In this document: positions 20,327 through 63,284 of the stretch, in pieces
Layout: each line of letters opens with the position of its first letter
Position numbering within the stretch: the first letter of the stretch is position 1
NCBI GenBank assembly: GCA_022539475.1
Contig: VCMS01000117.1
Span: forward strand, 62,001 to 126,000
Length of the DNA: 64,000 bases
Source of the DNA: Gracilaria domingensis
Lineage: Eukaryota; Rhodophyta; Florideophyceae; Gracilariales; Gracilariaceae
Direction: 5' to 3'
Notes under the pieces: generated by a model
Databases searched by the model: none
What the model saw: only the letters and a program-made list of their open reading frames with translations
What the model was told of the DNA's origin: nothing
Translations under genes and position numbers: made by a program

Positions 20327-20525
20327 GCCACACGGCGGCCAGGTCGTCGTCGTCGCGCGCGCAGCGCAGCAGCCGCGCAAACAGCAGCGCGCACTCCACG
20401 TCGGCCGCGTGCGGCAGCGCGGCCGCCAGCGCGCGCGTCACGTCGCCCAGCACGCCGCCCGCCGCCGCGCCGTCGCGCGCCGCGCCGTCGCACAGCGCGC
20501 GCAGCCACGCGCGCATGCGCGCCGT

Positions 20526-20565
<40 letters not shown>

Positions 20566-21039: not shown

Positions 21040-21076
<37 letters not shown>

Positions 21077-44020: not shown

Positions 44021-44590
44021 CTCTAGACGATACTTCTTGAACGAGCCATTCGATGCTTCTTGTTAATTGATTCTCAATATTTGTATCGTCTTCGCTTAAA
44101 AGAGCTCAGTACGCGAATACTTGCCAATGGCGCTTCTTGCCGATCATATTATTCAGAGCCAAATGCTCGATGATTTGCTCTGTTGTGAGTGCGCTGCTTA
44201 GGTCTTGCTTATTTGCTAGTACTAGCAGAGAGGCGCTTGCAAACCGTTCTTCCATTAGCAGTTTCTCCAGTTCTGTACGACAGTCGGATAAGCGGGCCAC
44301 GTCAGCAGAGTCAACAACCCAGATGATTCCATCTGTTTGTTCAAAATAGTTTCTCCACTATGTTGGGATGGTCTGTTGTCTTCCCACATCCCACATGTTG
44401 AGCTTGTACTTGTGGAACTCCAAAGTCTTTATATCGAATCCGAGAGTTGGTGAAACGCTATGTACACCTTCTCCCTTTAGACGCTTCATAATCATTATGA
44501 TACTATGATAGTTGTTTTACCGGCATTATCCAATCCAAGCACCAAAACGCGAATCTCACTGGAAATGTTTTTGGGTGCCCGTCGGAAGTT
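44020..44590 (-). pseudogene. Broken ARL2-like small GTPase gene
   Basis: Pieces of an ARF-like-2 GTPase follow in order on the minus strand: VLVLGLDNAGKTTI (P-loop), MKRLKGEGVHSVSPTLGFDIKTLEF, YKLNMWDVGRQQTIPT, WRNYFEQTDGIIWVVDSADVARLSDC, EERFASASLLVLANKQDL (NKQD motif intact) and, after a break, RSIEWLVQEVSS like the ARL2 C-terminal helix. There is a frame change shortly after the P-loop, an in-frame stop between PT and WRN (near 44.35 kb), and another break before the C-terminal helix. The Gly-Gly of switch II (WDVGG) reads GR. This is a pseudogene, probably of an old duplicate. Confidence 0.75.
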
Positions 44591-45210
44591 CCGGCGCGGA
44601 ACGTCTCCACTAAAAAGAAGGGAGCAGCATATGCAACTCAGGCATTAACGTGAGCTATAACCAGGAGGTACGGGTACAATCAAACCAGCATACGGTTCCG
44701 GTGTCCATCGATAGTCAACCAACGTATTTTTTCTTTCTTTCGACGGTTGAAGTTGGGATACACTTATTACATTCAAACTCTTAAAGAAACAGCCGATTGA
44801 AACTCATTCCAGTATTCCGTGAGGAAGCATTAGGTTCTCTATTTTTTTTCATTTTCTCTAAAGAGATTGCGCATGAGGAAGAATAAGCATGAAAGAAGAT
44901 AAATTTTCCAACGACACACAAGTTAGGAACACATCAGATGTGCTTAAAAAGCTAAGGTTCCAAAACTATAAACCTCGCAGGGAGGAGTTGAACAAATGTA
45001 TGCTACTTGATTCCCATTATCTGCAAAAACATCTTGAGTTGTATCCCATACTAACATGAACCTTTCCGAATGAGACTGAAGCACTCCACCTTAAGGAAAT
45101 ATTAGTAAAATAGTTCTTCGAAGTGCGAACTCAAGTTTTGTTTACCAAGCGTAGGACAGAACTGTTTCTAACGTTAAAGAAGCCTATGCCTTTCAGCGAC
45201 TGAAGGCGAG

Positions 45211-45237
45211 CCCTGACTCAGGGGCCCTGAGTCAGGG
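45211..45237. repeat. Perfect palindrome (13-bp arms)
   Basis: CCCTGACTCAGGG / CCCTGAGTCAGGG with a single central base. Each arm is itself nearly palindromic around TGACTCA (AP-1-like). Confidence 0.8.
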
Positions 45238-45390
45238 CCCCTGACACTAAGCAAATACTCTTTGTCTAGAACGAAATTCGTGTTACACCAAGTCAGCATC
45301 GTCATGATGTGGTTAGTGCTACCGTGGTCCGTACCAACCGGTTTACTTGCCTCTGCGCAAACGCTTTCTACCATCTAACTATCCTTCAAG

Positions 45391-45425
45391 GACGGCGGAA
45401 ATCTCAAATTGAGATTCCCGCCGTC
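45391..45425. repeat. Inverted repeat (17-bp arms, one mismatch)
   Basis: Arms GACGGCGGAAATCTCAA and TTGAGATTCCCGCCGTC around a single A. Lies just past the 3' end of the decayed minus-strand gene that ends at 45542. Confidence 0.8.
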
Positions 45426-45541
45426 AATTACGTCTAAAGCAGATTACTACTGGCTGTTAGTCCACATTCTTGAACAGCCTTGAAAAGTGTTGTGTTCTTG
45501 AGTTTTTCACGGAGCCTCACGTCACTAATCGCGGATAAGCT

Positions 45542-47400
45542 TTAAGCAAGTGGTATCCATAGCGCGCTTTGAAGCTCAACACATCGTCTCCAGACATAAT
45601 CTCCTAAGTCCACCCCCGTCAAGTCCCCCATGGTTTCATATACTTCGCCAACGCGCAATGCTTCTACAACCCGTTTTGCCAGGCTGTCGCTGTCAGCAGG
45701 CGAATTTTCTAGTATATGACGTACAAGATCTGCTCGGTGCATTAGAGCGTCAGGGTTTGGACTGAACTCGTCCTGAACTGATATCATAAACAAGCGAGCG
45801 ATCATAACACCTAACTTGCCTCCCTGGTCTGGGGTACATTGCTCATCTTCGTTCTTAACTGCCTCCAGAGCCCGCTTCGCAATGCTGCATACGCTGAATG
45901 AACTTGCTTTTGAGCCTATGTTTTCGGGCACGCTGACACAGTGGACCTGTTTAAAAAGTGAGTTAATGCGCTCTCCAAAGTAGCCAGTCGAAGACCAATG
46001 CATCCAAGACATATTTGGGAACTGTCCACGGTCTTTCCTAAGATATTTCGAGAGCAATGAAGTTAAGCGTTCCGAACAAATGTTTTTGTGAGTAAATTCG
46101 CCGCTTCTGAGCATTGTTCCTCGTAAATGGCTCTCGGGGAATTTAAAGCTTGCGGGCAAGTCGCGATCGAGAACTCCGCAGATGCTCATCGACAACAACA
46201 TCACGAGAGCTTCTAGTATCACAAACCCAATTCTCAATGCATTCCATATCGTCTTGGTCACTTGAAAAGAGTTCATAGTTCTCTTCCCTTCTATCAAACG
46301 AACCTTGGACAACGGAGGTAATTATGCGCCTCATCTCTGCTCTGAACGACACAGATTCTAAGACTTCCAATTCATCCGAACCACCAGCATCTTTCTGCAA
46401 CTTTAATAATCCGTCCTTAATGCTTTTATAGAGCGTCGGGAGAAAACGATGAAATTCGTAAGGGTGTCTATAGAGCAACAACAATCGTGCCACCACTCGT
46501 AATTCCACTGCTTTGTACTCGATTGCGGGTGTCACGACCTGGGATGAAGTCAAACACGTTAAATGACCATATCAGTCCGCAAGTGTTCCATTTTTCAACT
46601 TCACCGCCAGCTCGCACTAACACCGAACAGTCCTTGACCTAGTTAGTAGCAACGATTTCATGTATCCCCATGCCCCGTACCCGGCTCTCATCTCTCCCAC
46701 CGATTCCGATGCTGATTGAGAGGATAGCTGGTTAAAGTGCAGATCCGAAGCGCATGGGAGAAAATTATTTGTGGACACTTTGCTGGAGGGGACGTACTTC
46801 CAAACGTGATGCTCGCAAGGACACGATGGCAGCACTATTCCGAGAACCAAAAACAAACAAAGCCTTTGCTTTAGGAACGTGCAGGACGTCAAGTGCCAAA
46901 CAATCTTCGACGCCTGAAGACTGAATCAGAGAAGCAAGCACGCGAAGTTCTTGACATGTCGGAGCGCCCGACGATGTTATAGAGCGTCGCCGGAACACAC
47001 GCAAGACGCTATCTGGGGTCAACACAGCCAGTCCGGCACACTTAACTATGTCGCTGCGTGTTTCGGGAAGCCATACAGACAAAGCAGGTCCTCGTTCCTG
47101 ATAGTAAAGTTGAAGGGGAATAGAAACAGCGTCCAGTTCTGGGTCCGCAGCTATTCCTAAGGGCAGTGCTTGAGACGAAGCGTTAGCGATGATCGCAAAG
47201 CAGGCGACTGCGGCAACTGATAAGGGACCAGCTGGATGATCCGATATCAAGTCTTCTACATCAGGAGTATAATCAGCGCTTGCGACGTGCGCGAATGGGC
47301 CCTTTGCCACACCCACGGATACGGAAACAAAAGAATCTAGAGGTCGACTAAGACGATCACGCACGGGTTGCTGGCAATTGCTGTCGCCAGTATTCGACAA
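45542..47400 (-). pseudogene. Decayed multi-frame gene (possible nucleoporin-like protein)
   Basis: Three minus-strand ORFs, 46765-47400, 46143-46553 and 45542-46312, have consistent composition and probably come from one gene of 600 or more codons. The first is beta-rich (SVWLPETRSDIVKCAGLAVLT, KAKALFVFGSRNSAAIVSL), resembling propeller blades. The later ones are alpha-helical (VELRVVARLLLLYRHPYEFHRFLPTLYKSIK, CSIAKRALEAVKNEDEQ). Propeller plus solenoid is the architecture of scaffold nucleoporins such as Nup133, but I cannot confirm it. Frames change at least twice, which can be decay or unrecognised introns. Confidence 0.4.
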
Positions 47401-47598
47401 TTGTCGAGGACGTTAGTTACGAAGCATCCGAGAACACTAAGAAAGTGTCGAGCTATCACGAAGGCGTGAATTGTTTATATTCTGGTGGAGGTGCTCGGTT
47501 AGGTTTTGGTGCATTCTTAGCAAAGAAGATGATTCGCAGTGTCGCACAAAATTTTCGAAAACCCTAAAAAACGATAATAATATAAAGTGGTCAACAAC

Positions 47599-47616
47599 CG
47601 AGACATATATGTCTCG
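47599..47616. repeat. Palindrome CGAGACATATATGTCTCG
   Basis: Perfect 18-bp palindrome, followed by a T-rich stretch, 40 bp beyond the 3' end of the transposase remnant. Relative of 39730-39745. Confidence 0.7.
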
Positions 47617-47655
47617 ATAATTTTTCTTTTAAATGTAACATATAGTTCGAAAGAG

Positions 47656-48366
47656 TTATTCCATATTCAAACAATGAAAATAACACCATTCTAAATCATG
47701 CTCTGAAACAAAGTAGTCTCTGCTTCGAAACTTCTCAGTCAGCTTTGCTTTAGCCTTAATATTTTGAATCAATGCTTGATAGGCGAGCAAAGCAATATAA
47801 TACTCATGGCCTCCGTTTCTCAATGATCCTGCAATGACTCTGATGCCACTATTTCTCTGTTCATGGGAAACAGTATTCTTTGTATCCAGTTCAAGATACG
47901 CCTTTGGATTATACGAAGGAGAGCAATTCTTATGGTTTTCAATGTGGAATTTGTCACTTACAATAGTTGTATCCTCTAATGCCCACCATAAAGTGTTGAC
48001 ACAGGAATTAAATAGTCCACAAGAAACGTCGTACACAATAAACCTCGGAATCTTTGCAAACCGAGAAACAATCATGTCCAGTACAACTTTCGGGCCCTCA
48101 TTTCGATAAAGAACTTTTGTTTCAAGTGTAATAGTGCTGGCACACGCACAGGAAATTGTCATAGCACCAAGTGTAAAACTTTTTTGCTTTTGAAAATATT
48201 GCTTTGAACATAAACCCAAGATCCCCATTTGGGACTCTCCAATTTCATCATTATTGAATGTCAAAGGTCGAACTTGTTCTCTTCCTGGAAAATATGATCC
48301 GGTACACATTGCTTCATCCAAGCTTGACATACTTCTCTCAATGCCACCTGCATACTTTATGCACAT
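47656..48366 (-). mobile_element. Remnant of a DDE transposase, KDZ-like
   Basis: A 236-codon ORF that looks like the C-terminal catalytic part of a KDZ (Kyakuja-Dileera-Zisupton) transposase. Candidate acidic residues: Asp in RFIVYDVSCGLFNS (family pattern 'YDIAC'), Asp in VSDKFHIENHKNCSPSYNPKAY (pattern 'DxFHxxxHxxxC'), and Glu in NTVSHEQRNSGIR (pattern 'xxExxWS/xxEQxNS'). The N-terminal zinc/CxC part is not present in the ORF, so the gene is incomplete at its 5' end, which abuts the ParB-like gene's 3' end at 48391. KDZ elements are DNA transposons; the family call is by motif only. Confidence 0.5.
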
Positions 48367-48390
48367 CTTTTGTAAGAGCTCTTTTTGCTT

Positions 48391-50640
48391 TTAGAACCCC
48401 ATTCTTCTGCGTATGTACCGTTTCTTCCTCGGCGGAGCCCGCTGTTCTTCTTCAGAGCTATCCAGAACTTCTATGGCACCTCGATTTCGGCCGTGCTCAA
48501 TTTCCCTATAACTCACCTGCGCCCGTTCTCGTGCACTTCTTCGCGGCTCCCCTTCTTCACTGGCAGATGTTGCAGCAGCAGCAGCGGGAGTCCTCCTCTT
48601 CGTCACGCACTGCTTCACTGGTGCGGGGGGCGGAATTACCTTGAGCATCGTACGCAATCGATTCTGAACGGAAGTCGTGGCAGTTCTAATTGAGTTCGTC
48701 CTGCTCCGAACACGCGGTAATGTGTTGAAGTTCACAACTGGTCCCAAAAGGAACTGATACACAGCTCCGTTGTTGTCTGGGTCTTCAACGTCATCTTCAT
48801 TCGATGGAGCAGAAAGACTGACTTCGCGTTTCAGGAACACTTCCATGGACTCTTCCTCGTTCAGTTCATTCCTCACTGCTCGAGCTGCGCGGAACAGAGA
48901 CACTGCTCTATCATAAAAGAAACCTCGAACCTCCTCAAAGCTTTTCCATTGCTTTGTCTTCGTCGACTTGCCATTCAATAGAAACATCTGAAGACAATCA
49001 AGAATGAAGGAAAACTCCTCGGCATCCAAAACATATAGCGGAGTATGGGACAGATGTGTGAGACCTATGTCACTCACAGTCTCACATATATCCTCGAAAT
49101 GGGCCAGCATTCCCTCACGAGACATGAGTTGCAGAGCGACATTGGCATATCTCAGATACTGACGCTCTTGCACAGTCCTAATCAGTTGGCTCTCCTTCAA
49201 AACTTCTGTCACTTGTGCAGGATCCACGTCTGCCGACGTCACCCGCTCAACATCTTCAATTAGAATGGCGACCACACTAAGTATAGAGTGTATCTTGTCT
49301 GCAAACATCATCCTTCGCATGGTACTCGTCGACTCATTGAGGTACGAAGCAACACATAACAATTCCTTCATCCCAATGGGCCTCCCATCTCTTCGTATCA
49401 GCAGATTGCAACGCCAAAACTTGGCTAATCGCTTCCACTTCGGAGCACCAGTCGCTGCCAAATATTGTATAGCTTTCAGAGGATGCAAACCATCTACAAT
49501 GAACCACTTCTTCGTTAGGCGTCCCTTGTCAGTATTCCTCTCTCCCGTAGTAGCATCTTGTAAGGCCACCACTGGAGAACCCATCGACTGCAATATCCCC
49601 CGCTCCTCCATACTCTTCACAAGGGCTTCAACGTGGCGTTTACTTACTCCACGAAGTAAATTGGGCGGAGTGTCCACCAGAGTGATGTCAACAGTAACAA
49701 CAACCATCCGGTAGTGATTGAGGTTCACCTTTGGTACCTTCTGACGAATTCGTCTGTACGTCTTGCTCCGAGTAGGTGTCCCTTGTGTTCCAGACCGCTC
49801 GCTAGAAACACTTGAACGTGCCATTCTTGCGAACAGCAGCACAACGTCATCGTCCTGCTGCTCCGCAGTTTCTGGTGCAGTTTGGGGTACAGATGGACCA
49901 GCTCCTTGTGCGGATTGCGCATCCGTGTCTGGAAGGGGACCTTTTATGATCTCATCTTCCTCTTCTTGCACAGCCGTCCCGTGCTGAACCGTCTGTTTCG
50001 ACGCAGAAGTTCCCCTTGTGTCGACAGTCTGATTCATCGCAGGAGATGCCCTTTTCGACGCAGTGGGCTTCTTAGCGGAGGTAGACTTTGTTTGACCTGT
50101 CCGCTTCGTAGCTGGGGATGATCTCGTCTCCATAGACCGCTTCGTAACAGACGACGGACCGGCCCGCGGAGGTGCTACTGATGCGCTACCTCTCGGTGTT
50201 GATGAACTTCGAATTGGCTCGGTGCGGCTTGTCGGCGTCATCACCTCACTCATAGCGCTCACCGTTCCTCGCCTCGACGCCGGAATGCTGGCTGCCACCG
50301 GTTCCATCATTTTCTCATCCCAACGAGCGGCCGTCCGGAGATCCTGGATGTATTGTGGAAGATCCAGGCCCTCCGCCCGGTAAGGGTAGAACGTGTAACC
50401 GCTTCGACTGATGAGAATATTATGAACCACCACAAGACCTGGGTCCAATTGCTTCCCGTTCAACTCGCGGCGTAGAACACTTCCAATTCCATGCAACAAC
50501 GCTTCCCCGACTATCACCTTTCGTTCATTCTCAATATGCATCTGCAGAGAAACCCGCATTCCACCTTGCAATGATCGAGTGCTCCGCCGAGTGCGAGGAG
50601 TCAGGCTTTGCGTACGCTTTCGAACACGAGTTGGCTTCAT
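48391..50640 (-). CDS. ParB/Srx-fold domain protein, probably nuclear and element-encoded
   Basis: 749 residues, apparently intact. Residues 305-400 read like a ParB/sulfiredoxin-fold domain: VNLNHYRMVVVTVDITLVD, GVSKRHVEALVKSMEERGIL (the ParB 'LxxSIxxxGxL' helix), SPVVAL, then KWFIVDGLHPLKAIQYLAATG, equivalent to the nucleotide-binding 'VDGxHRLxA' of ParB/SerK-type proteins. The usual Arg of HR is Pro here. The N-terminus (RVRKRT...RTRRSTRS) and C-terminus (PRKKRYIRRRMGF) are strongly basic. Residues ~130-230 are low-complexity Ser/Thr/Lys with degenerate repeats (SPATKR, SPAMNQ, TSASKQ). A helical domain occupies ~400-640. Upstream lies a palindrome array and the divergent methyltransferase/SET genes. 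ParB proteins bind palindromic sites, so the array is a plausible target (inference). Confidence 0.55.
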   Translation of the reverse strand: MKPTRVRKRTQSLTPRTRRSTRSLQGGMRVSLQMHIENERKVIVGEALLHGIGSVLRRELNGKQLDPGLVVVHNILISRSGYTFYPYRAEGLDLPQYIQDLRTAARWDEKMMEPVAASIPASRRGTVSAMSEVMTPTSRTEPIRSSSTPRGSASVAPPRAGPSSVTKRSMETRSSPATKRTGQTKSTSAKKPTASKRASPAMNQTVDTRGTSASKQTVQHGTAVQEEEDEIIKGPLPDTDAQSAQGAGPSVPQTAPETAEQQDDDVVLLFARMARSSVSSERSGTQGTPTRSKTYRRIRQKVPKVNLNHYRMVVVTVDITLVDTPPNLLRGVSKRHVEALVKSMEERGILQSMGSPVVALQDATTGERNTDKGRLTKKWFIVDGLHPLKAIQYLAATGAPKWKRLAKFWRCNLLIRRDGRPIGMKELLCVASYLNESTSTMRRMMFADKIHSILSVVAILIEDVERVTSADVDPAQVTEVLKESQLIRTVQERQYLRYANVALQLMSREGMLAHFEDICETVSDIGLTHLSHTPLYVLDAEEFSFILDCLQMFLLNGKSTKTKQWKSFEEVRGFFYDRAVSLFRAARAVRNELNEEESMEVFLKREVSLSAPSNEDDVEDPDNNGAVYQFLLGPVVNFNTLPRVRSRTNSIRTATTSVQNRLRTMLKVIPPPAPVKQCVTKRRTPAAAAATSASEEGEPRRSARERAQVSYREIEHGRNRGAIEVLDSSEEEQRAPPRKKRYIRRRMGF

Positions 50641-50704
50641 GTTGAACAGCTATTGCAGTGAAAGGTGTATATCAACAATACGCTCGCTCTGGACGATACA
50701 AGAA

Positions 50705-50800
50705 CGGAGGCGAGCCTTTAAATGGCGACTTACGCTGGGCACCCCCGCTTTCGGCAGCTCCTCCTAGCGCACTGCCAGTCTCGTCCGTGTCCTGTCCGTG
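50705..50800 (+). repeat. Outer inverted repeat, left copy
   Basis: Near-identical to the reverse complement of 52345-52442. Includes CGAGCCTTTAAATGGCGAC. It ends 65 bp from the ParB-like start codon. Confidence 0.85.
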
Positions 50801-51085
50801 GCCGCTCGCACGCTGATTGTACGCTTTAGAGTCGTGGAGTTCGCGCAATGATGACTCACGCGAGCAATGGTCGCGCTCTCTAATCGTGCTCTTCAAATGC
50901 TTTGCATAGTAGTCAAGAGTACACTCATTCACTTTCATGTACAGCCTACTCCCGCCAATACACGTGGACAGCGGCGCCAACATACCGGCGGCCGGGTGTA
51001 GCGAAATCACTGCGGGGCGGCGTGTTTTGGGAGGTCCCGGGAAGGCGCCGGAATGTGGCCAGAACGTGCCCGCGGGCGGGGGGGT

Positions 51086-51119
51086 CGGTCGTGTTAGGGT
51101 AGGTACCCTAGCACGACCG
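51086..51119. repeat. 34-bp palindrome, copy 1
   Basis: Arms CGGTCGTGTTAGGGTA and its reverse complement with one mismatch, centre GG. Flanked by C/G runs and CCCGCGGG. Confidence 0.85.
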
Positions 51120-51195
51120 GACCCCCCCGCCCGCGGGCATAAAATCGCACATTTTTCAAAAAATCGCCCAAAACGTGCCCGCGGGCGGGGGAGTC

Positions 51196-51229
51196 CGGTC
51201 GTGTTAGGGTACCTACCCTAACACGACCG
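51196..51229. repeat. 34-bp palindrome, copy 2
   Basis: Perfect arms, centre CC. Confidence 0.9.
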
Positions 51230-51789
51230 ACCCCCTCCCCCACCCGCGGGCACGTTCTGGCCACATTCTGGCGCCTTCCGGAGACCCCCCAAAACACAAC
51301 CCCCGGCACTTCCTGTACCCACTGCGTTACCTCAGTGCACCATCCCGTCTTCTCCACCCTCCAGACACTCTTTAATTTCCACGCGCACCACACCTACTCT
51401 AGAGAAGAGGATGGTGTCGAGTGTTAATGATGTGAGGGACTCTCTGACGTCTGCGCCGTGTTCCGCGACGGGGCTGATATACTGGATGCAACGCCGATGG
51501 CCCGGCGGCCGCCCCTGGCGCAGCAATACTTAAGAGCGACATCGATAGCAGTCTTTCGTAGTCTAGTGGTAAGCTATGAAACAACTTGTAACTTTCAGTA
51601 AACTAATCTTTACTAGAGGGTAGGTGTGGTGCGCGTGGGAATTAGGGAGCGTTTGAAGGATGGAGAAGACGGGATGGTGCACTGAGGTGACGCGGTGGGT
51701 GCCGGAAGTGCCGGGAGGAGTGTTTTGGGAGGTCTCCGGAGGGTGCCAGAATGTGGCCAGAACGTGCTCGCGGGCGGGGGGGGGGGGGT

Positions 51790-51823
51790 CGGTCATGTTA
51801 GGGTACCTACCCTAACACGACCG
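51790..51823. repeat. 34-bp palindrome, copy 3
   Basis: One mismatch between arms, centre CC. Confidence 0.85.
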
Positions 51824-51901
51824 GACCCCCCCCCGCCCGCGGGCACGTTTTGGGCGATTTTTTGAAAAATGTGCGATTTTATGCCCGCGAGCGTGGGGGT
51901 C

Positions 51902-51935
51902 CGGTCGTTTTAGGGTATCTACCCTAACATGACCG
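51902..51935. repeat. 34-bp palindrome, copy 4
   Basis: Two mismatches between arms, centre TC. Confidence 0.8.
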
Positions 51936-52010
51936 GACCCCCCCGCCCGCGGGCACGTTTTGGGCGATTTTTGGAAAATTGTGCGATTTTATGCCCGCGG
52001 GCGGGGGGTC

Positions 52011-52074
52011 CGGTCGTGTTAGGGTACCTACCGCGGGTTCCGGTCGTGTTAGGGTAGGTACCCTAACACGACCG
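52011..52074. repeat. 34-bp palindrome, half copy plus copy 6
   Basis: 52011-52032 holds one full arm and the start of the second, which is then replaced by CGCGG. 52041-52074 is a complete perfect copy with centre GG. Confidence 0.85.
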
Positions 52075-52344
52075 GACCCCCCCGCCGGCGGGCACGTTCT
52101 GGCCACAATCTGGCACCCTACGGAGACCTCCCAAAACACTCCTCCTGGCACTTCCGGCAGTGATTTTGCTGCACACGCCGTGCACATATATCAAACTAGA
52201 GAAAACTAGCGCTTCACACCCACTTGGTCCGCGACTATTAGCACAATACGCGACCTTTGCAATAGCTCCGAATCGCGACGTGGCCAACACGCAACGCTAT
52301 CGCACCCGCTCGAAGCGGCACGGACACCGACCTCAGAAGGGAGC

Positions 52345-52442
52345 GGACACGGATACGGACGAGACTGGCAGTGCGCTGGGAGGAGCTGCCGAAAGCGGGA
52401 GTGCCCAGCGTAAGTCGCCATTTAAAGGCTCGCCTCCGTTGT
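52345..52442 (-). repeat. Outer inverted repeat, right copy
   Basis: Mirror of 50705-50800. Ends 14 bp before the start codon at 52456. Confidence 0.85.
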
Positions 52443-52455
52443 TTGCGCTGAAGCG

Positions 52456-53703
52456 ATGGATTCCACCGATGATGGAGAGGAGATACATCCTATCGACATG
52501 AGTGCTCCGCCTCCGGCGTTCCATGCATATGTCAGACTTTTCTTGGTTCTTCGCGATGCTTTGGCAAACAGCGATGGAGGCCCTGATCGGCCACGGGACG
52601 TAGGCTTTAGAGGGCTAATAGAGTTCTGCGCCGAGAACTATAAGGATATTCCGGAGGCAAGGAAGATGTTTGAGGAGGCCACTAACTCCAAGAACCTGCA
52701 GAACTTGACACTGCAACAGCTGCGAAAGAGTGTTGTGAATAACAAACCTGTGGAACAACGATATCTTGTAACGAAGCTTCTTGACAAGAAGGACGGGGAT
52801 GAGGACCAGAGACTCCGCGATTTTTTCCTTCTCTCTATGGATATGGGTATATACCTACCGGTGCGATGCCTGGTTGGTTATTTCATGACCAGGAGAAAGC
52901 AGGTTCTGAAGACGACAGTGTTCATCCCACCAACAGCTGTGAACCCATTTGAGGTCGTTATATACTTATCATACCTCGGCCACATAATGGGAGAGAACGA
53001 CAACATCCGAATGATGAAGAAGAAACAACCGAAAAAGAAACGAAAAGTGAACCATGCACCATCTTTGTACATACCCACTTTTACGTCGTTCTCCAAAGAC
53101 AACTGTGATCGACTGGGATTCGGTATCAGTGAGGTCGTATGGGCATGGAGTTGTTTTGCGGCTCATCTTGGATACACGAACGTTCAGCACATGGTGAAAC
53201 CATACATTTACATGAATATGCAGACGTTGAAGTATACAGCGCTAGAGACAAGGGAGTCTGGTTATGCCCCGCCGAGCCAGAGTACTCGATTGAACTCACA
53301 GGATGTGTCACAGAGCAGTACAAGTGGATCGGTGGAGACCTTGAGTGATGAATGCGATACAAACCTCCGAATACTGGCTAAGGAATTTTTGACAGACCTC
53401 GAAACCATATGCACCCACGGTAGCCTCTATAACTTACGGGCTGATCAGATGAGGAACTGGATAGAGTTTTCGGAGATACGGATGGATACCGTATCTGGTT
53501 CTGACTCCGGTGAGTTGCCTGCTCGATTTCAGAAGTTTTCGGAGTTGCTATGGAAACCGATACAGGATATGCGTCATGCGGTAGGGTTCCATGTCGGCAT
53601 TCACGCGAAACCTGATATTGAACTGACGAAAACCCCTAAAACTTCCGGTAATGCCGAACCTTCTTCGACCAAGTCTGCCCCACCCCCACCTCGTCGAGAG
53701 TAA
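52456..53703 (+). CDS. Unrecognised nuclear protein preceding the methyltransferase
   Basis: 415 codons. No known domain. It contains PKKKRKV, identical to the classic SV40-type nuclear localisation signal, within a Lys-rich stretch near residue 195 (KKKQPKKKRKVNH). Before it are helical segments (RDFFLLSMDMGIYLPVRCLVGYFMTRRKQ) and after it a Trp-containing helix (SEVVWAWSCFAAHLGY). The C-terminus is Pro/Ser-rich. The next ORF starts right after it on the same strand, suggesting a two-part product or shared transcript. Confidence 0.55.
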   Translation: MDSTDDGEEIHPIDMSAPPPAFHAYVRLFLVLRDALANSDGGPDRPRDVGFRGLIEFCAENYKDIPEARKMFEEATNSKNLQNLTLQQLRKSVVNNKPVEQRYLVTKLLDKKDGDEDQRLRDFFLLSMDMGIYLPVRCLVGYFMTRRKQVLKTTVFIPPTAVNPFEVVIYLSYLGHIMGENDNIRMMKKKQPKKKRKVNHAPSLYIPTFTSFSKDNCDRLGFGISEVVWAWSCFAAHLGYTNVQHMVKPYIYMNMQTLKYTALETRESGYAPPSQSTRLNSQDVSQSSTSGSVETLSDECDTNLRILAKEFLTDLETICTHGSLYNLRADQMRNWIEFSEIRMDTVSGSDSGELPARFQKFSELLWKPIQDMRHAVGFHVGIHAKPDIELTKTPKTSGNAEPSSTKSAPPPPRRE

Positions 53704-54309
53704 ATGGACCTCGTGAGCTCCGATAGCGACGACTTCGAGAAGCCGGTGAATCTTGCGGAGCATGAATCTCGGGTTGCCGGTTACATCATCCAAAAGACTG
53801 GTATTGAGCCGCCCAGGAAGGGGATATCCAGTCTCCTTCGAATGAATATGGACAAGGTGTGGAAAGGGATGAGAAAGTCACACTTTGTAGCGTACAACTG
53901 TGACATGAAGGACCTGAGGCACACACACGAAACATTTGTGAATCAGAATGAGATTTTATGGGGTGAGGCACAGCTTGTCCTAACAGACCCTCCCTTTAAC
54001 ACTCGAAGGAAGAGGAACAAACGGAATAGTGCTCACGATGTCTTCAGTGAGGATGACATGATGAGTACGGCTGACTTAATAAGTTCCGCGCTTCGGTCAG
54101 GTGGAACTTCATTATATTCCGTGCCATGTCACAGTTTCATGTTTGGCACAGGATACTTTCGGAAACGGCGAGTACGAAAGATGAAGCTGGAAGCGAAGGT
54201 AAGCCAGAACTCATGCCTTCGTTTAAAGTGGATGGGAATCCACTGGTGTTCATCCGGGATCAAAGTAATGTTGGAGGGAATCCACGGAAGTTTGAGATAC
54301 AGCCCGTAA
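53704..54309 (+). CDS. N-terminal part of a beta-class DNA amino-methyltransferase
   Basis: Residues 85-100 read EAQLVLTDPPFNTRRKR: DPPF is motif IV, the catalytic tetrad of N6-adenine (or N4-cytosine) DNA methyltransferases, preceded by the expected hydrophobic strand. Downstream, DLISSALRSGGTSLYSVP resembles motifs V-VI. The SAM-binding motif I lies further downstream in the ORF at 54126-55220, which is the motif order of the beta class (HinfI/CcrM type). The two ORFs use different frames in their overlap; whether this is splicing or decay was not resolved. Confidence 0.65.
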   Translation: MDLVSSDSDDFEKPVNLAEHESRVAGYIIQKTGIEPPRKGISSLLRMNMDKVWKGMRKSHFVAYNCDMKDLRHTHETFVNQNEILWGEAQLVLTDPPFNTRRKRNKRNSAHDVFSEDDMMSTADLISSALRSGGTSLYSVPCHSFMFGTGYFRKRRVRKMKLEAKVSQNSCLRLKWMGIHWCSSGIKVMLEGIHGSLRYSP

Positions 54310-55220
54310 CGGAGTACGCCGTTCATGGGGTGAAGCGTGGATTGCGACCATCCGAGGAAGCCAGTCTTACTCCATTTGAGGAGAACAATTTCATTCCTTC
54401 TACTTTCCCCGCCAACAGGAATGTAATTGACCGGGTGCCAAAACCGAGAGCGGGGGAGTGGTTGACATGGAAGGTAAATGAGCCAGGTAGTTCAGTACCA
54501 AGTGGGCAGTACATAAGACCGGAGCAGAAGTCGAGGGAGTTGATGAAAGAGTTGATATGTCGCTTCACAAGACCGGGTGATCTTGCCATGGACATGTTCG
54601 CGGGAACTATTTCTACGGGTATGGCGTGCCTATCGCTGACCAAGCATAGGAAGTTCTTGGGGTGCGAGAAGAATAGGCCATGTTTCAGCCATGCGAAGCA
54701 CCATCTAACGACTCTTATGGCCGAAGTTATTCGCGGGGGGAAGAATGACATCCTGGTTGAACAAAAGGTGGTGGATGCGGCTTCAACGACCTATGAACGG
54801 GTTCCACATCGGGACCGAGGTCGGCTTGAATGGGAGGCTCCATCTGGATACCCCCAGTACCAAGTGATGCCTGCACATATTACTCAGTTCCTAGGAAGAT
54901 ACTGGAAGGACTGGGACTTTGTCGACAAGTGTGGACAGCATACTGTAGATCTTTGGGAGGAGAAGTACCGAGGAGCTCTGAATCTAATGGATATGCATAT
55001 GCTGTTGACTGTTGAAGCCAATCGCTATCGCTTACATGTAGCATCTTCTAAGATTCGACATACCCGTGCTGGTATGGGGGTGTTCACGGAACATAAGATA
55101 TTGGCTGGGGAAACTATCTGTCATTTTTATGGAACTTTGGTATACACGGATCTGACGAACCGGAAGGAAAGACACTTAACGTATGGAAGTGGCTGTCTCG
55201 GAGCAACTCCAGTGCGGTAA
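54126..55220 (+). CDS. Methyltransferase SAM-binding part joined to the start of a SET domain
   Basis: 364 codons. SRELMKELICRFTRPGDLAMDMFAGTISTGMACL (shown here only by its parts: motif X-like SRELMKELI and motif I DMFAGTISTGMAC), then KHRKFLGCEKN (motif II), are typical of the DNA amino-methyltransferase C-terminal half. A linker of ~110 residues follows. From about residue 305, IRHTRAGMGVFTEHKILAGE and TICHFYGTLVY read like the opening strands of a SET domain. So DNA-methylating and protein-lysine-methylating modules sit in one reading frame. Confidence 0.65.
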   Translation: MSQFHVWHRILSETASTKDEAGSEGKPELMPSFKVDGNPLVFIRDQSNVGGNPRKFEIQPVTEYAVHGVKRGLRPSEEASLTPFEENNFIPSTFPANRNVIDRVPKPRAGEWLTWKVNEPGSSVPSGQYIRPEQKSRELMKELICRFTRPGDLAMDMFAGTISTGMACLSLTKHRKFLGCEKNRPCFSHAKHHLTTLMAEVIRGGKNDILVEQKVVDAASTTYERVPHRDRGRLEWEAPSGYPQYQVMPAHITQFLGRYWKDWDFVDKCGQHTVDLWEEKYRGALNLMDMHMLLTVEANRYRLHVASSKIRHTRAGMGVFTEHKILAGETICHFYGTLVYTDLTNRKERHLTYGSGCLGATPVR

Positions 55221-55223
55221 AAG

Positions 55224-55592
55224 TTGTTTTCTATGATGGTCACTGTGGCTGGTACGGAGTTTCTGCACCTGAGGAACAGACCAGGACAGGCTCAGGATAG
55301 GAAGGAGAGCGAAGTGTACATTGTCCCGGCGCCTTTTTGTATCGGGGGCTACATTAACGACGCCGGATATCATGCCGGGGATCTCGATTTATCGCAGCCC
55401 CGGTCAAACAGGACTCGAAGTGCCAATGTGCAGATGGTGGAAGCGAAGTCTGTGATACAGTTTAAGTCCGACCTTTCTAACTATGCTCTACTTCGTTGTA
55501 GAGCAGTAAGAGATATTGAGAGGGGCGAAGAGTTGTATTTCAACTACGGAGAGCAGTACGCCTGGGACTGGGCTCTGACATTGGAGCAATAG
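55224..55592 (+). CDS. SET domain, C-terminal half
   Basis: 122 codons. GGYINDAGYH (equivalent of the SET 'NHxC/P' knot), RSANVQ, then YALLRCRAVRDIERGEEL and YFNYGEQYAWDW, which match the 'a.rdI..GEEl..dYG..Y' end of SET histone methyltransferases. It continues the SET domain begun in the preceding ORF. Confidence 0.65.
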   Translation: MFSMMVTVAGTEFLHLRNRPGQAQDRKESEVYIVPAPFCIGGYINDAGYHAGDLDLSQPRSNRTRSANVQMVEAKSVIQFKSDLSNYALLRCRAVRDIERGEELYFNYGEQYAWDWALTLEQ

Positions 55593-55838
55593 ATGAGTTC
55601 AGTACCGAATAGAAATTAAATATGCTTGTGAATGTTGCAGCTGCCTGCAATACGCGTTGTACATGTACACTGGAGCTCTTCATCTATTTGTAACGGCGAT
55701 ATTTGCGACCCATTGGGCACCTCAAATTCCTAAAAAGCAGGAACTGCGGAGTCTCCCGGAATATCTGAACCATGCACCCCCCCCCCACCCCCTCCCCCCC
55801 CAACAAGTTCGTTTCATTACCCCGTTTATCTCCACAAC

Positions 55839-56275
55839 ATGTTTATAACGCCGAGAAAGCGAAATAGTACGCAGCGGAACAAGAGTGGACAGAAGAAGAG
55901 AAGAGCATCGGATGATACGAATCAGGCTACAAGCACCGCACTTCCTAAACGGAAGTCGTCCTCGACGAAGGAGAGAGTCAGTGGGCGTCCTTCTACAGTA
56001 CTCCCTCGCCCATCTCGCAGGGAGCGTCTTCCGTGATTCCGTCAAGAATTCGTGGATCAGCGAACGATGTCGTGCCGTCAACTGCCGATAATGCAAATCC
56101 TGCATCTGTCTCTGCTCCTCAAGAAGATGAGGTAGCTCGGTCCAACGGGTCAGGACAGGAGGGCATGACAACTGGAACTGAAGAGGTTCGTATGAAACCA
56201 AAACCTTCATGTCCCCGGCCGATATCGAAGACCGGAGCTACTGGGGCGCGGGTTACGCCGCCCAGTGGATCTTGA
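55839..56275 (+). CDS. Short basic ORFs at the start of the coiled-coil unit
   Basis: Overlapping small ORFs (55839-56036 and 56033-56275) are Lys/Arg/Ser-rich (KRNSTQRNKSGQKKRRASDD) and then Pro-rich. The second contains RPISKTGATGAR, the first of three degenerate RP-x-RTG repeats continued in the next ORF. Probably the N-terminal part of the same product. Confidence 0.35.
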
Positions 56276-56287
56276 CAACAAGGTACA

Positions 56288-57034
56288 ATGACGAGAAGTC
56301 GTGAGAGCCCTAGTATATTAAGATCGTCACGTCCCTCCTTGTCTTTTAGAACTGGGGCCGCTATGAATCGTATTATGCCTCGCAATGGGTCCGAACAAGG
56401 AAGAAAGACAATAAGAAATCGAGAGACAACTGATAGACGATTTACTCCTCGACCTTCCCCTCTTTCCAGAACGGGGGTCGTTGAAGCTCGTACGAGGCCC
56501 AATTCTTCTGATATACGATGCCATGGAGGAGGACAGACACGGGAGTTGGAGCTCGGAGCCGTGCCAAGGGTGGACACAGAACGCCTGCAGCCTCTCGTGT
56601 CTAAGGGTATGGCACATGAGGATAGTTCCGATAACGAAATAACACCGAATCCTGCGGCAGTACTGGGGCCTGTCGCCGAAGAGGCTAGGGAAATACCGGA
56701 AGATATCCAAACTGGTGTGAATTCAACCTCTATGAACAGACGTGATCTTTTAAATGAACTGAATTGCTTGAAAGAAAAGGTTAAGACGCTACAAGAGGAC
56801 TTGATGGGTCGGGGTATTCTAGTGAAGGTCGCCCAAGAGCAGAGTACGGCTTTGAAAAAGAGGCTTAAAGAGAAGGATCTAGTCATTGAAGGGCTAAGGG
56901 GGGCACTGAAACAGGAGAGAGATAGCAGTACACGTGCTGGTGTGAACCTGGGCAGACAGGTCGAAAGGAGCATAAAATTGAGGTGTGCGACGAGTTTCGA
57001 GGGGTTGCTCGAGCAGTGTATCACAACATGCTGA
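56288..57034 (+). CDS. Disordered/coiled-coil protein of the same module
   Basis: 248 codons. The first ~130 residues are disordered with the repeats SRPSLSFRTGAA and PRPSPLSRTGVV. A coiled coil follows at about 150-215 (LLNELNCLKEKVKTLQEDLM, STALKKRLKEKDLVIEGL). No family recognised. It may be a structural or DNA-binding partner of the module; later ORFs at 56983-57459 and 57507-58082 continue on the same strand. Confidence 0.45.
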   Translation: MTRSRESPSILRSSRPSLSFRTGAAMNRIMPRNGSEQGRKTIRNRETTDRRFTPRPSPLSRTGVVEARTRPNSSDIRCHGGGQTRELELGAVPRVDTERLQPLVSKGMAHEDSSDNEITPNPAAVLGPVAEEAREIPEDIQTGVNSTSMNRRDLLNELNCLKEKVKTLQEDLMGRGILVKVAQEQSTALKKRLKEKDLVIEGLRGALKQERDSSTRAGVNLGRQVERSIKLRCATSFEGLLEQCITTC

Positions 57035-57459
57035 CGTGGGCAAGGAGAGAAACAAGTGAGCTATGGCTGGAAGGTGAGTCGCTCACCCGAAATTGGGGTA
57101 GCCGTGCCGAGAAGGTGGAAGACGCAACTGAGAGTGGGGAAGGGCTTATTGAGCCGGAGGAAGGTGGTTCATACATGGTTCCTAAAAACCCCGTGGAGCT
57201 CTTGGGCAGTTTTGGCATGTTCACACCGTCGGTAGAGGGGGGGCCAGATGCTTTGCTGAAGAAAATGGTTGAAAGCGAGTTGAAGGAGTTGAGCTGGGAA
57301 GGTATTAGAAAAGCATCTCTTACCGACAGGTGTATACTGGAACTTTGTGCAGATATGTGCCTTAGGCAGAGAATGCGGCAGACCATGAGTGACGTCGTGG
57401 GCGTTCGTAAGAGAAATACGAGGGAGATAAACTATTTCTGCTCCTGGGGTACGATCTGA
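56983..57459 (+). CDS. Hypothetical ORF, helical
   Basis: 158 codons on the same strand, overlapping the preceding ORF. Helical and charged (DALLKKMVESELKELSWEGIR, ILELCADMCLRQRMRQTM). No family recognised; likely part of the same product as its neighbours. Confidence 0.4.
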   Translation: MCDEFRGVARAVYHNMLTWARRETSELWLEGESLTRNWGSRAEKVEDATESGEGLIEPEEGGSYMVPKNPVELLGSFGMFTPSVEGGPDALLKKMVESELKELSWEGIRKASLTDRCILELCADMCLRQRMRQTMSDVVGVRKRNTREINYFCSWGTI

Positions 57460-57506
57460 TTTGGAGAAGAACAAAGCTGGTAGAAGAGAATGCTGACGAA
57501 CTCACA

Positions 57507-58082
57507 ATGCAGTTGAAGGAAGCGCAGGAGAACATACTGCGTCTTGACGAAAATGGTGTACCGCACACTTCATGGTGGAGAAAAGCCCCATTTGTTCGTC
57601 TAAAGTACTCCAATGCGGACAATGTCGAGGATATGCCGACGGAAGATCAAGACTTGTTCTTCCGAAACCGTGTCGGGGTACAAGTACTGAAGGAGTTTAT
57701 TGGGTATGATGTGGAAGACAAGGATACGGGCACCTTTTTAGATGGCACAATACTGTTGCTCGCACGTTTGGACGCTTGGGTGTTGACGGTTGTGAGCCTT
57801 CTAAGTACGGATGTGTCAAGTGGTGACCAGAGACAGAAACTGTTTACAAAGAAGTTTGCCCAACTGCTACCTCTGTGTTTAAAGAATGTTCTGGGGGATG
57901 TTAGGCAACGTGTCTTGAGGACCAATTCCAGCGAGTTTCATAATTTTGGAACGACAACGGAAGATTGGACTAAGGTTCTTGGTAATGACATGAGAGAGGC
58001 TACATTTCGATATCGAATGCCGTCGAACGGAAGACTCTACCTCACTGTGAAAGAACAATTTTTTATTGACAGTGTGAGCTGA
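57507..58082 (+). CDS. Hypothetical ORF, C-terminal part of the coiled-coil unit
   Basis: 191 codons. Begins within a coiled coil (LKEAQENILRLDENG) and continues with a mixed alpha/beta region (FLDGTILLLARLDAWVLTVVSLL, FTKKFAQLLPLCLKNVLGD). Unrecognised. It converges on the transposase at 58235. Confidence 0.4.
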   Translation: MQLKEAQENILRLDENGVPHTSWWRKAPFVRLKYSNADNVEDMPTEDQDLFFRNRVGVQVLKEFIGYDVEDKDTGTFLDGTILLLARLDAWVLTVVSLLSTDVSSGDQRQKLFTKKFAQLLPLCLKNVLGDVRQRVLRTNSSEFHNFGTTTEDWTKVLGNDMREATFRYRMPSNGRLYLTVKEQFFIDSVS

Positions 58083-58234: not shown

Positions 58235-61200
58235 TTAAGGCTGTACAAGATCAACGTGCTCAGTTGGTCCTTCATCTGAATCATGATAGAATCGATTGAT
58301 GTAGAATCGGTGTTGAAACCATTGAAGTGGAGGACAAAAAGGTGGAGCAGGGTAGTTTGATCGAACAACATGGACAGTTCCCTGTAGTGCAGAAGCCGGA
58401 ACCATCCCGTACCAAGGAGTTAACTCTACGATAGTCTCCGCTTTGGAATGACGAGGGAACGGAAGAGTGTGGTTCTTTTCATCGTTTGTAGCCCACCGTA
58501 AAGATATGCATTTCAATATGAGGTCGATGCTTGTTGCGGGGGGTAAAACCTCGAAATACCGGACGAATGCCCCCTCTGGTGCGGTAAGTGCAGAATCAAG
58601 GAGAGATATTCGAATCAGAGCGACTACCTGGGCAACCCAAGTCTATGAATCTTCTCCGCTTACCAATACAGTGGAAAACTTTGGCTTTCTACTGGGACCA
58701 AATGCTGGAGAAGCGAAGACACGTTGGATGATGGGGTATTTGGGTCGTCCCAGCTTAAGTGCCTTAGAAGACGAATCGAAGTGTTCAAGAGTCGGAACGA
58801 AACCGCCTTTCACGAGGGCCGAATTCACCAGAGTTATCCTTGTCTTTTCTGGGAAGTATGTAATAGAGTGCTCATCCACTGTTTCTTTCACGAGACTGAG
58901 GAAAGGAGGAAGGGCCTGTTCACCAATTTGGTCAAGAATCGACCTTGTGTCCGTACTTGAGAACATCTCTCTAACAGCAGTCCATGTTTTTGAATTGGAC
59001 ATACTTGAAACACAATGTTGAACAGCTCGTAAAGTGAAAGAACGCCCTCTCATTGCAAACCGAGGAAGCTGTGTGGAAGTTCCTGGTAAACCTGGATTAC
59101 GCTGGTAAGGAGTATTGCCATTCCATTGCTTTCCAACATTTCCGTGCTCAATGGAGCGAATAGTCTCCCCCACAGCCGTTGCTGTTCTTCTGGACGTCTT
59201 TTTGTAGTGTCTCTTAAATAGCAGGTGTGCATGTTCGTACATGCCTGTTTCGTAGTACTTGATACTTCCCAGACGACGAATATCGTCCACGAGATGATCG
59301 AGAAGATGAAACTTCAGAGTTCCCAGTCTGGAGGGATGAAAATCCGCCAGAGTCATTGTTGCGGAACGCTTGAAGGCTTCAATCTCCGAACCAAGACACA
59401 GGAGAGAGCTTTCAGTCCAATACGGGTCACGTTTGTATCTGAATAAAGTCGAAAGCAAGTCTGAGTATTGAGGGAAAATGTTTGTGATTGAGGCAACGTC
59501 CTGTTCTCCACAGCATATGTCAAAGAATGCTCCTATGAAGGGGAAGAGCATGTCAAGTGCTTTGTAGTTTTTGGTCTCCAGCATTCCACGGAGACCGTCT
59601 TTCGTGAAGTTACCATTCAAAGATTTACCTTTCTCTTGCGTGGAGAAATCGATGTGTAAACCTTTGGCAGGATAATCGTGTTTTATGTCAGCTAGAATTG
59701 CGTTTGCATGGTGGGGGAGTTGGGTGCGTATCGTTCAAAATGAACGCGATGAAGATGTTTCTATTCTTGTGCATACGGTGTCTGACTGCAGTCTCTCGAT
59801 TGTGGCCGTTTTTATCAGCTTCGAGACGCAAAGATGCAAGTTGTGTAACGGGTTGAATGAGAACAAACTGTATGGAGACAATCTCGGGATCATTCAAAGG
59901 CTTACGGAAGTTTCGAGGAACGAAGGAATGAGAGATATGGAATTTGAACGCATCAGAGTATCCGCCAGAGATGTCCTCTCCCTCGCACGACGTGGACGTC
60001 TTTCCGGCTCGTCTTTTCGTGCATGTTCTAAGATAGCTGTGTATGTCTTTCGGATGCTTTCGTGTGCTTTTGAGAACTTCCGTTGAATGAGGTGGGAACA
60101 TGACTGCATAAAGATGAGCGAGGGGCTTTGCATCTATGACACGGGCTTTCCGTTTTGGTCCCATAAAGAATAGACAGAATGTCCTTAGCATCAGGAATAT
60201 CCGCACAATAACTTGCAAGCAGAGGATGGCACACTCGACTTAGTTTGTCTTCGCCGATGAACTGAAAACCTTTCTGCGTGAGATTTAGAATAGGCTCCAG
60301 GACTTGACGAAGAGATTCTTGAAGGATTTGCATCCTGGACTCGCGTAGAGACTTAATAGAAACGAATGGCATTGCGTCTGCTTCAGATGCGGAAACCTCG
60401 ATCAGTGTGGTAGGGAAGTATGCCACTACTCCCTAGCAAAACCCATTGTCATTGAATCATCATGCGGCGGTAAATGAAATTGACGCCTTTCAATAAAATG
60501 TAAGGGCGCTTTCGAGGAATTTAATTTTTCCAAAAATTCACACTCATGGAAATGTCAGTGAAACAAAAACTTACTTATTTCTCAATGACGTTGGTCATAT
60601 TATCTTACTACACCGGTCATCTTTTCTGCAAGTCTGCTGAAACCTCTTTTAGTTTTCCCTCGACGAGTTTTGCCTGGGACTGTGAGGTCATCATGGATGC
60701 ACTTACGGCGTAGCTCGTCGGAGAAATTGAGAAATATGAGGTGAAGAGGATAGGCGGTAACCGATGTTTGCTTTAGAGTTGTTGAAGACTTATCGGTGTA
60801 TACCTGCAGAAGACCTACGAAAGATTCACTGTAACTTATTTCTTGGGAGTACCACACTATTCTACTATCCAAAGAGCCCATGACCATTTCCTTAAGTTTT
60901 GAGGTGGCGTCTCTTGCGAGAGAGCTGGACATGGGGTGAGATATTTTCGTGGAGTGGGTCTGAGGTATAGGGTGGAAGAATGTGTTTTCGTTGTGAGCCA
61001 ACTGGAGCTGTTTCACAAGTGTCTGAACGGGGTCTCTCGTGTAGAGGGTGGCGCTGAACTTACATCCTTCTGGCGAGACAGTTCTTCGATTGAAACCGTT
61101 CTTTGAGGCGTATCGTTCGAAAATGGCGTTCCTCAGTTCTGTACAGCGCTTGGAACTTGTTATGGTCTCGTTGAATCGCTTTTGCGAGAATCGCGGGTCC

Positions 61201-61439
61201 CGAAGTAGCCCAATTAGCTCGTCAGCCTCACGATGACCAAGGTTGGAAGCCACTGAAGCCAGAAAAACCGTGAGATAATCCATATGCAAATCACCGAGGG
61301 TCTCCTCAGAAGGCACTGGGCGGGAACTGCTTCCGTGTTCTCGCTCTAATGACGCGGGACCCGGGGAAGGAGAAACACAATGCGAAGTGTCCGGAATCGG
61401 AGGGGCGCACGGAGTGGGGTCGACGATGTCCTCGGACAC
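58235..61439 (-). mobile_element. Plavaka/CACTA-type (Tnp2-like) DNA transposase, broken, with an intron
   Basis: Segments in order on the minus strand match Plavaka/En-Spm transposases: LLQVYTDKSSTTLKQTSVTAYPLHLIFLNF (motifs 'SDKT...' and 'YPVYLTIGN'), RLAEKMTGV then GVVAYFPTTL, HPLLASYCADIPDAKDILS and YGTKTESPCHRCKAPR ('ADxPE...GxxxCxxC'), NPLHNLHLCVSKL ('DxLHxLHxGV'), GMLETKNYKALDMLFPFIG, and FHLLDHLVDDIRRLGSIKYYETGMYEHAH ('HxLxHxxDDIRRFG'). The C-terminus ends in RFYHDSDEGPTEHVDLVQP. The reading frame shifts at least twice between 60.1 and 59.6 kb, so this copy should not make transposase. The N-terminal ~100 residues are Pro/Ser-rich. Terminal repeats were not located. Confidence 0.75.
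60433..60608 (-). other. Likely intron in the Plavaka-type transposase
   Basis: 176 bp, GTAAGA donor after ...MTGV and GCTAG acceptor before GVVAYFPTTL. Removing it joins two homologous segments in phase 0. Confidence 0.6.
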
Positions 61440-62364
61440 CGGAGGCTCGGGAAGGCGACAAGGGGCAGTGACCGTTTCGGAAGATGCGGGCGCGGGCGCG
61501 GAAAGCTTGAGAGGCTTGCTTCTCCGAATGGGCCGGCTATTGTCGTCTTCCAGCGCTGCTTTCAGACGAAACGGGCAATGGTTGACATGCTGTTGAAGAG
61601 ATAAGACTCCTCAGCGAGTAACGAAGGGGCACCCACGCTTTTTATGTGTACAGTAGTAGACCATGGGAAGAAGAAATGAACGAGAAACGACGACAAAGAC
61701 TGCAAGGGAAGGTCGTCCGAAGGGAGAAGGAGGTCGAGCGACAGTGAAGATCGACGTCATGCTGAGAACGGAGAATATATTTTGAGTTTAAATCACGTGC
61801 TTTCGTTCAAAAAGGAACGTAGGTACACGTCGACCTCAACACAAGGGCGTACTTCTCGTATTGTCTACCACTGGTTATAAACCTGTGGTTTTCCAACGTT
61901 GCACGCTGTACAACTGTTCAATCTCGCACAGAAAATTAAATCTCTTCCCTCCGCCGCCGCCGCCGCGCCTCCGACGTCCGACCTTCCGTTACCGTCGTGA
62001 TCCGTGCCATCCACATCCTCGCGTTATACTCCGCTCCGTCCTTCGTTTTTCCTCCCTCTACTTTACGGAGGCTCCTTAAAGTAGAGGGCGGAGAAAAGTA
62101 GGACGGAGTCATCCGTATCTCACGGATGTATTCCGTGCAGTCTATTCGTACGTTCTTCCATATCCTTCCACGTATCTTTGCTCTAAACTAACCAATCCTC
62201 ACCGCGTTTCTTCGCGCTCTGCGACATGTAAACGGCAGGAAATAAGCTAATCACCTTCAACTTCTTCTATTTGTTCAAGATATAGAACGAGTTAAAGGGT
62301 GAAAACGGGAACCTGGTAACCCAAAGCGACGACTGTAAGTAAGCGAGCAATGGTTCATTTCTTT
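61440..62364. other. Upstream region of the transposase and non-coding spacer
   Basis: No gene supported. A long imperfect hairpin lies at about 62032-62106 (CTCCCTCTACTTTA paired with TAAAGTAGAGGGCGGAG, extended by CCGTCC/GGACGG). An AT-rich element GAATATATTTTGAGTTTAAA is near 61771. Confidence 0.5.
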
Positions 62365-62446
62365 GCGCCATAGGCTCTAGCTTCGCCTCTTGCGTCAGTT
62401 TTCAAAAGTAGCGCAAGACGCGAGAAGCTAGAGCCTATTGCGCAAC
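62365..62446. repeat. Long imperfect hairpin, MITE-like
   Basis: Arms of ~30 bp (GCGCCATAGGCTCTAGCTTC... and its near reverse complement ...GAAGCTAGAGCCTATTGCGC) with a ~16-bp AT-rich loop. Could be a tiny foldback element or a structured 3' end of the ORF at 62435. Confidence 0.75.
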
Positions 62447-63160: not shown

Positions 63161-63251
63161 CTTTTGATACGGACGTAGCACACTAGTTGCAGGTGAAGGT
63201 TCCTCAAGTAGGGAACCATGCATCTGGGCACGGTTACCTATATGAGGAATG

Positions 63252-63284
63252 GAGAGGATGAGGCGCTTCGCGCCTCATCCTCTC
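63252..63284. repeat. Perfect 15-bp-arm hairpin
   Basis: GAGAGGATGAGGCGC / GCGCCTCATCCTCTC around TTC. No adjacent gene is firmly supported. Confidence 0.85.

Follow-up and report, generated by a model that had tools for sequence, protein, structure and literature searches.

The closest described counterpart of the locus treated here is the accessory protein of the Ectocarpus Sola-1 transposon Sola1-1_Ec32, a 1104-aa polypeptide that joins a ParB-like domain to an N4-cytosine/N6-adenine (N4C/N6A) DNA methyltransferase and that, in the excerpts of PMC12477816, is proposed to bind its own element and modify it epigenetically. The same excerpts, citing Iyer et al. 2011 and Petroll et al. 2025, point to similar transposon proteins in green and red algae with the same idea of self-marking, and they report giant EnSpm elements with accessory genes in red algae. 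On the prokaryotic side, excerpts of PMC5512222 name a Bacillus cereus ParB-methylase and describe nicking, nuclease or NTPase activities of ParB domains. Here we describe a locus in a 64-kb stretch of the red alga Gracilaria domingensis (contig VCMS01000117.1; the whole stretch is hereafter the window), where a leftward gene for a likely ParB/Srx-like protein and a rightward series of genes, with a DNA methyltransferase and a likely SET domain, diverge from an array of palindromes. With modest confidence, we read the locus as a set of accessory genes in a large nuclear DNA transposon, by now decayed in part, that would mark its own control region.

What this locus shares with Sola1-1_Ec32, as the latter is described in the excerpts, is the pairing of a ParB-like domain with an N4C/N6A methyltransferase, here in nuclear sequence that looks transposon-like. 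The arrangement differs: the two domains form one polypeptide there and lie in two separate divergent open reading frames (ORFs) here, where the methyltransferase is accompanied by a likely SET domain and the genes are separated by a palindromic array. The Ectocarpus element has a Sola-1 transposase, whereas here there is only a weak Plavaka-like piece. The original prediction, made from the DNA alone, had found the combination unfamiliar in nuclear DNA. Because the excerpts of PMC12477816 give the same pairing and the same proposed role, the hypothesis that a ParB-like protein and a methyltransferase let a nuclear transposon mark itself has already been published. Possibly new are the separate divergent genes, the methyltransferase-SET linkage and the palindromic array, with the green and red algal proteins cited there, which are said to be similar, compared through the sentences that cite them. 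A literature word search found no paper joining ParB, SET and methyltransferase in an algal transposon, the closest cited works being known by citation only. The prokaryotic pairs (Escherichia phage C1, and B. cereus in the excerpts of PMC5512222) have the same two domain types, adjacent or fused, and differ in that no SET domain and no divergent promoter array was seen there.

In the reading that we prefer, the leftward ParB/Srx protein and the rightward proteins, namely one with a nuclear localization signal (NLS), the methyltransferase and the SET protein, would be co-expressed from duplicated promoters. One of them, most likely the ParB-like protein, would bind the palindromes between these promoters and bring the methyltransferase and SET activities to the region. 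The element would then place DNA and histone methylation on its own control region and tune its own expression at both promoters together. The fullest version of this proposal, in which the ParB-like protein reads the array in a bidirectional control region while the methyltransferase and SET domain write DNA and histone marks, giving a selfish nuclear element control of its own chromatin state without the host, strikes us as unlikely. Transposon proteins that bind and methylate their own element have so far been proposed from domain content, judging by the excerpts of PMC12477816. A candidate reader and a candidate writer flanking a clear, repeated candidate target make that proposal simple to test for binding and methylation, and a SET domain on the writer, if true, would couple DNA marking to histone marking within a single mobile element.

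The divergent genes are a leftward ORF of 752 open codons, with its first ATG at 50640, and a rightward ORF (52426-53703) that carries PKKKRKV, an NLS like that of SV40. The ORF list and a palindrome scan bear out the positions of the ORFs and the claim of five 34-bp palindromes and a half copy between them (Table 1). The scan covered the window and sought 17 pairs with at most three mismatched, with 20 order-1 Markov simulations of the window as the control. It returned ten palindromes, of which five make up this array and the other five lie at 2233-20638, where the sequence is repetitive and rich in GC; each simulation returned 0, and the five palindromes of the array thus exceed chance. Around four of the five the symmetry extends into a near-palindrome of about 73 bp bordered by G- and C-runs, and the corresponding 81-nt single-stranded DNA folds reach -48.2, -41.7, -39.2 and -37.6 kcal/mol. 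Palindrome 5 has a short stem only (-27.9 kcal/mol over 81 nt), and for each of the five 81-nt stretches none of 200 shuffles matched the real fold energy. A 16-mer from the half-palindrome occurs in four IMG/VR stretches, with one match each, which we take as chance. As a separate observation, the palindrome cores (51086-52074) set TTAGGG opposite CCCTAA as head-to-head telomere-like hexamers, which could be coincidence or a host Myb/TRF-type site.

The array sits within a 1.74-kb inverted repeat, which also supplies a duplicated 93-nt sequence to both genes. Its inverted arms 51231-51409 and 51608-51786, 86% alike, flank a 198-nt unique centre, and two further inverted pairs in the same region are 92% and 93% alike. 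Inverted 12-mers gather at two centres, near 51510 and 51570, an offset that would fit the extra unit of about 110 bp that a tandem repeat finder detects in the right arm. The two copies of the 93-nt sequence are inverted relative to each other, 96% alike, and both contain TTTAAA. Their position suggests that they may serve as promoters common to both genes.

Table 1. Coordinates of the palindromic array, the divergent genes and the transposase-like pieces in the window
Feature	Coordinates	Strand	Details
Likely ParB/Srx-like protein gene	48391-50649	-	ParB/Srx region at about residues 314-430
Promoter-like copy 1	50700-50792	-	60-152 nt upstream of the ParB-like ATG; TTTAAA
Inverted-repeat region holding the palindromes	51004-52166		last 10 nt at either edge placed by eye
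Palindrome 1, 34 bp	51086-51119		2/17 positions non-pairing; core of 73-bp near-palindrome 51067-51139
Palindrome 2, 34 bp	51196-51229		1/17 positions non-pairing
Palindrome 3, 34 bp	51790-51823		2/17 positions non-pairing
Palindrome 4, 34 bp	51902-51935		3/17 positions non-pairing; core of 51882-51955
Half copy of palindrome	52010-52026	+	
Palindrome 5, 34 bp	52041-52074		1/17 positions non-pairing; left outer arm missing; adjoins half copy
Promoter-like copy 2	52351-52443	+	just upstream of the NLS protein ATG; TTTAAA
NLS protein ORF, unknown family	52456-53703	+	starts at ATG 52456; PKKKRKV; ends in TAA, directly followed by an in-frame ATG
Methyltransferase, N-terminal part	53704-54130	+	motif IV DPPF at about 53986
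Methyltransferase, C-terminal part	54130-55000	+	motif I DMFAGTIST; frame differs from DPPF part
Likely SET domain	55030-55592	+	interrupted by TAA 55218-55220; possibly with a short stretch in a different frame
Third rightward gene, unknown family	55750-58082	+	TGA 56273-56275; frame changes near 56010, 56965 and 57430
Pieces of possible Plavaka-type transposase gene	58643-61610	-	Plavaka E=0.024 on 60603-61610, below gathering score

A ParB/Srx domain in the leftward protein, which the original prediction had named by its fold, is likely, with modest support that comes from profile comparison. Residues 316-354 match PHROG 3264 ("ParB-like partition protein") at E=0.0023. An hhalign comparison with an alignment of eight phage ParB-like proteins, drawn from 320 matching phage records, scores 32.4 (E 0.00041), and the highest score among 200 shuffles of the same sequence is 23.5. 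This comparison sets DGLHPLKA of the algal protein opposite DGQHRYLGA. No ParB-type match to the 752-codon ORF appears in Pfam, NCBIfam or PDB sequences, the best Pfam match being at chance level (Miga, E 0.8), and tblastn of phages and plasmids at E<=1 returned nothing. An IMG/VR peptide-pattern search, which reaches close relatives only, likewise found none. Pfam gives no HTH_ParB match in this ORF at E<=1, and one phage ParB under the same test gives 2.5e-11.

The rightward series comprises, after the NLS ORF, an ORF with DPPF (53704-54309), a methyltransferase/SET ORF (54075-55220), the SET C-terminus (55221-55592) and more ORFs up to 58082. The NLS protein has no family match in Pfam or NCBIfam and one chance-level match in PHROG (E 0.22). 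In beta-class methyltransferases, motif IV, DPP[YFW], lies N-terminal to the S-adenosylmethionine (SAM)-binding motif I region. The order here, DPPF and then the SAM-motif half, is the beta-class order, and with the profile matches it makes the predicted identity as a beta-class N4C/N6A methyltransferase secure. The N-terminal part matches Pfam N6-adenineMlase (E=0.00089, below the gathering score) and phrog_67 (E=0.17). The C-terminal part matches Pfam N6_N4_Mtase (E=2e-9), DpnA (PDB 5hek, E=1.2e-7), CcrM (2.5e-6) and PHROG methyltransferases, best phrog_67 (E=8e-13). A tblastn search with the methyltransferase reached distant relatives in phages (100 records, E<=0.01) and plasmids (11 records, E<=0.001), all of them with less than 80% of the query covered. 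Peptide patterns of the methyltransferase-SET side, a search that reaches close relatives only, found no relative in IMG/VR or prokaryote genomes. A SET domain on the methyltransferase side is likely, though less firmly placed: its C-terminal part scores 20.5 bits against Pfam SET (E=0.00067; cut-off 22.4 bits), and its N-terminal part has a weak KMT2A match (E=0.64) that is collinear with the C-terminal one.

The domains predicted for the rightward side largely hold, with SET just below the cut-off, but the prediction of a DPPF methyltransferase/SET unit does not extend to a single open frame. The interruptions are TAA 53701, a frame break after DPPF and TAA 55218. A codon-usage scan, for which eight open stretches of the window (among them the ParB-like ORF, the NLS ORF and 57500-58079) served as the training set, follows frame 1 to about 54100 and then mostly frame 0 on to 55563, favouring frame 2 in three windows that cover 55128-55275. 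Introns are possible at the two stop codons, because each is spanned by in-phase GT-AG pairs whose donor resembles GTAA/GTRAG (six for TAA 53701, four for TAA 55218) and the host has introns. The break after DPPF has 38 in-phase GT-AG pairs, and the five with a good donor share donor 54047 and would excise the GG-containing stretch, which leaves this break without a well-placed intron candidate. Reassignment of stop codons is an unlikely cause of the breaks, since the host ORFs for Ssl1, ABC-F and DUF155 are open and the stop at 13129-13131, which separates two host ORFs, lies inside a plain intron. The integrity of these same ORFs also makes sequencing error unlikely. The ParB-like and NLS ORFs are open, and decay has probably affected the writer side of this copy in part, leaving the methyltransferase-SET writer broken. 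In the third rightward gene, the TGA falls within a 39-residue protein repeat, whose copies we picked by eye; none of 500 shuffles reached any of the three pairwise scores. Peptide patterns from the third gene, the NLS protein and a transposase piece found no IMG/VR relative, within the close range that this search reaches.

It is reasonable to suppose that this locus belongs to an element able to recognise and mark itself. This hypothesis is favoured by the domain matches, the palindromes beyond chance, the 93-nt upstream sequence common to both genes, the weak transposase-like sequence nearby, and the algal and phage precedent. Several observations weigh against it. The writer frame is probably broken, the DPPF, methyltransferase and SET parts do not form one open frame, and motif I reads DMFAGTISTG here against DPFMGSGTTG in 5hek. 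The hhalign probability of the ParB-like region is only 34.6%, and the phage motif DG[EHQ]xR reads DGLHPLKA here, so that the arginine of DGxHR is missing. The profile comparison that the original prediction had called for supports the domain modestly. Single-sequence AlphaFold2 models of the region are too poor to be informative, with predicted local distance difference test (pLDDT) scores of 39.5 and 42.7, and do not confirm the ParB/Srx fold. By eye, the order of strands and helices in both poor models is compatible with ParB/Srx; a Foldseek search of the first model against PDB gave unrelated proteins at best (E 0.19) and is meaningless. Six of the seven phage and plasmid methyltransferase neighbourhoods inspected show no separate ParB-annotated gene. 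No transposon ends were found: the segments 43140-48390 and 61600-64000 have no 13-mer in common as an exact inverted match, and the region runs on past the end of the window.

The main rival, which we consider doubtful but possible, treats the inverted array as transposon ends. The array would then consist of long terminal inverted repeats, with a promoter and subterminal repeats, set head to head where two copies or two ends of one element have joined; the palindromes would bind the transposase, and the ParB-like and methyltransferase-SET proteins would not act there. En/Spm-type elements carry transposase-binding repeats at their ends. The inverted arms, with their 198-nt unique centre and the matching sequence outside them, suit such a structure, as does the weak Plavaka-like piece nearby. 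Inspection by eye found no target-site duplication or recognised terminus at the arm ends, however, and the two flanking genes differ, and therefore these are not two copies of one end-plus-gene unit.

Two further explanations concern the ParB-like protein itself. It might be a nuclease or NTPase partner of the methyltransferase that nicks unmethylated DNA, with self-methylation protecting the element. Such ParB activities and the B. cereus ParB-methylase are described in the excerpts of PMC5512222, and in one of the seven phage and plasmid neighbourhoods, that of Escherichia phage C1, a ParB-like partition gene lies two genes before the methyltransferase gene. We nevertheless hold this to be improbable: the conserved arginine of the active pocket, as given in those excerpts, is not evident in DGLHPLKA, and the palindromes are left unexplained. 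The original prediction had also raised the idea of a partition system, in which the element would have an extrachromosomal form that is partitioned or maintained in the manner of ParB/parS; we find this very improbable. A ParB-like domain beside a palindrome cluster does recall bacterial ParB-parS, but no ParA-type family is among the matches listed for 30 ORF pieces of the window (in one list, the best 25 of 42 families), HTH_ParB is undetected by Pfam in the ParB-like ORF, and the contig also carries ordinary eukaryotic genes. Bacterial parS is 16 bp long, and the palindromes here are at least 34 bp. The one parS-like match, with three mismatches, is at chance level (expectation 0.37; at least one match in 34 of 100 shuffles).

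The sequence from about 45 kb on looks transposon-like, and its parts may all belong to one transposon. Plavaka elements form an EnSpm-like group. Two pieces of the possible transposase gene, 58643-59734 and 59688-60239, have no Pfam match. A leftward ORF (47656-48390, - strand) lies in frame with the ParB-like ORF, with one stop between; it has no Pfam match, and by eye we take it to resemble part of KDZ-type transposases. Next to the transposase-like pieces, close to the window's right end, 62034-62108, 62363-62445, 63252-63284 and 62475-63157 hold further inverted repeats (82-91%) and two direct duplications, one 88% alike at 339-nt spacing and the other 93% alike at 373-nt spacing.

The window is eukaryotic, because gene 11950-15495 (- strand), presumably a fused proline dehydrogenase-P5C dehydrogenase as judged by eye, has a 93-nt intron (GTGAGT...CGCAG, 13093-13185). 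Left of the module, Pfam identifies ordinary eukaryotic-type genes (Ssl1, DUF155, ABC-F, short-chain dehydrogenase) and a cytochrome b561 at 42441-43139. An Rfam scan of the window gave no match at gathering score and a tRNA scan gave 0. An ORF for a Ulp1-type C48 peptidase (36121-37305, + strand, E=4e-16) could be a transposon passenger or a host gene. The stretch 16001-22000 is GC-rich, with 66-79% G+C per 2-kb step and abundant simple repeats.

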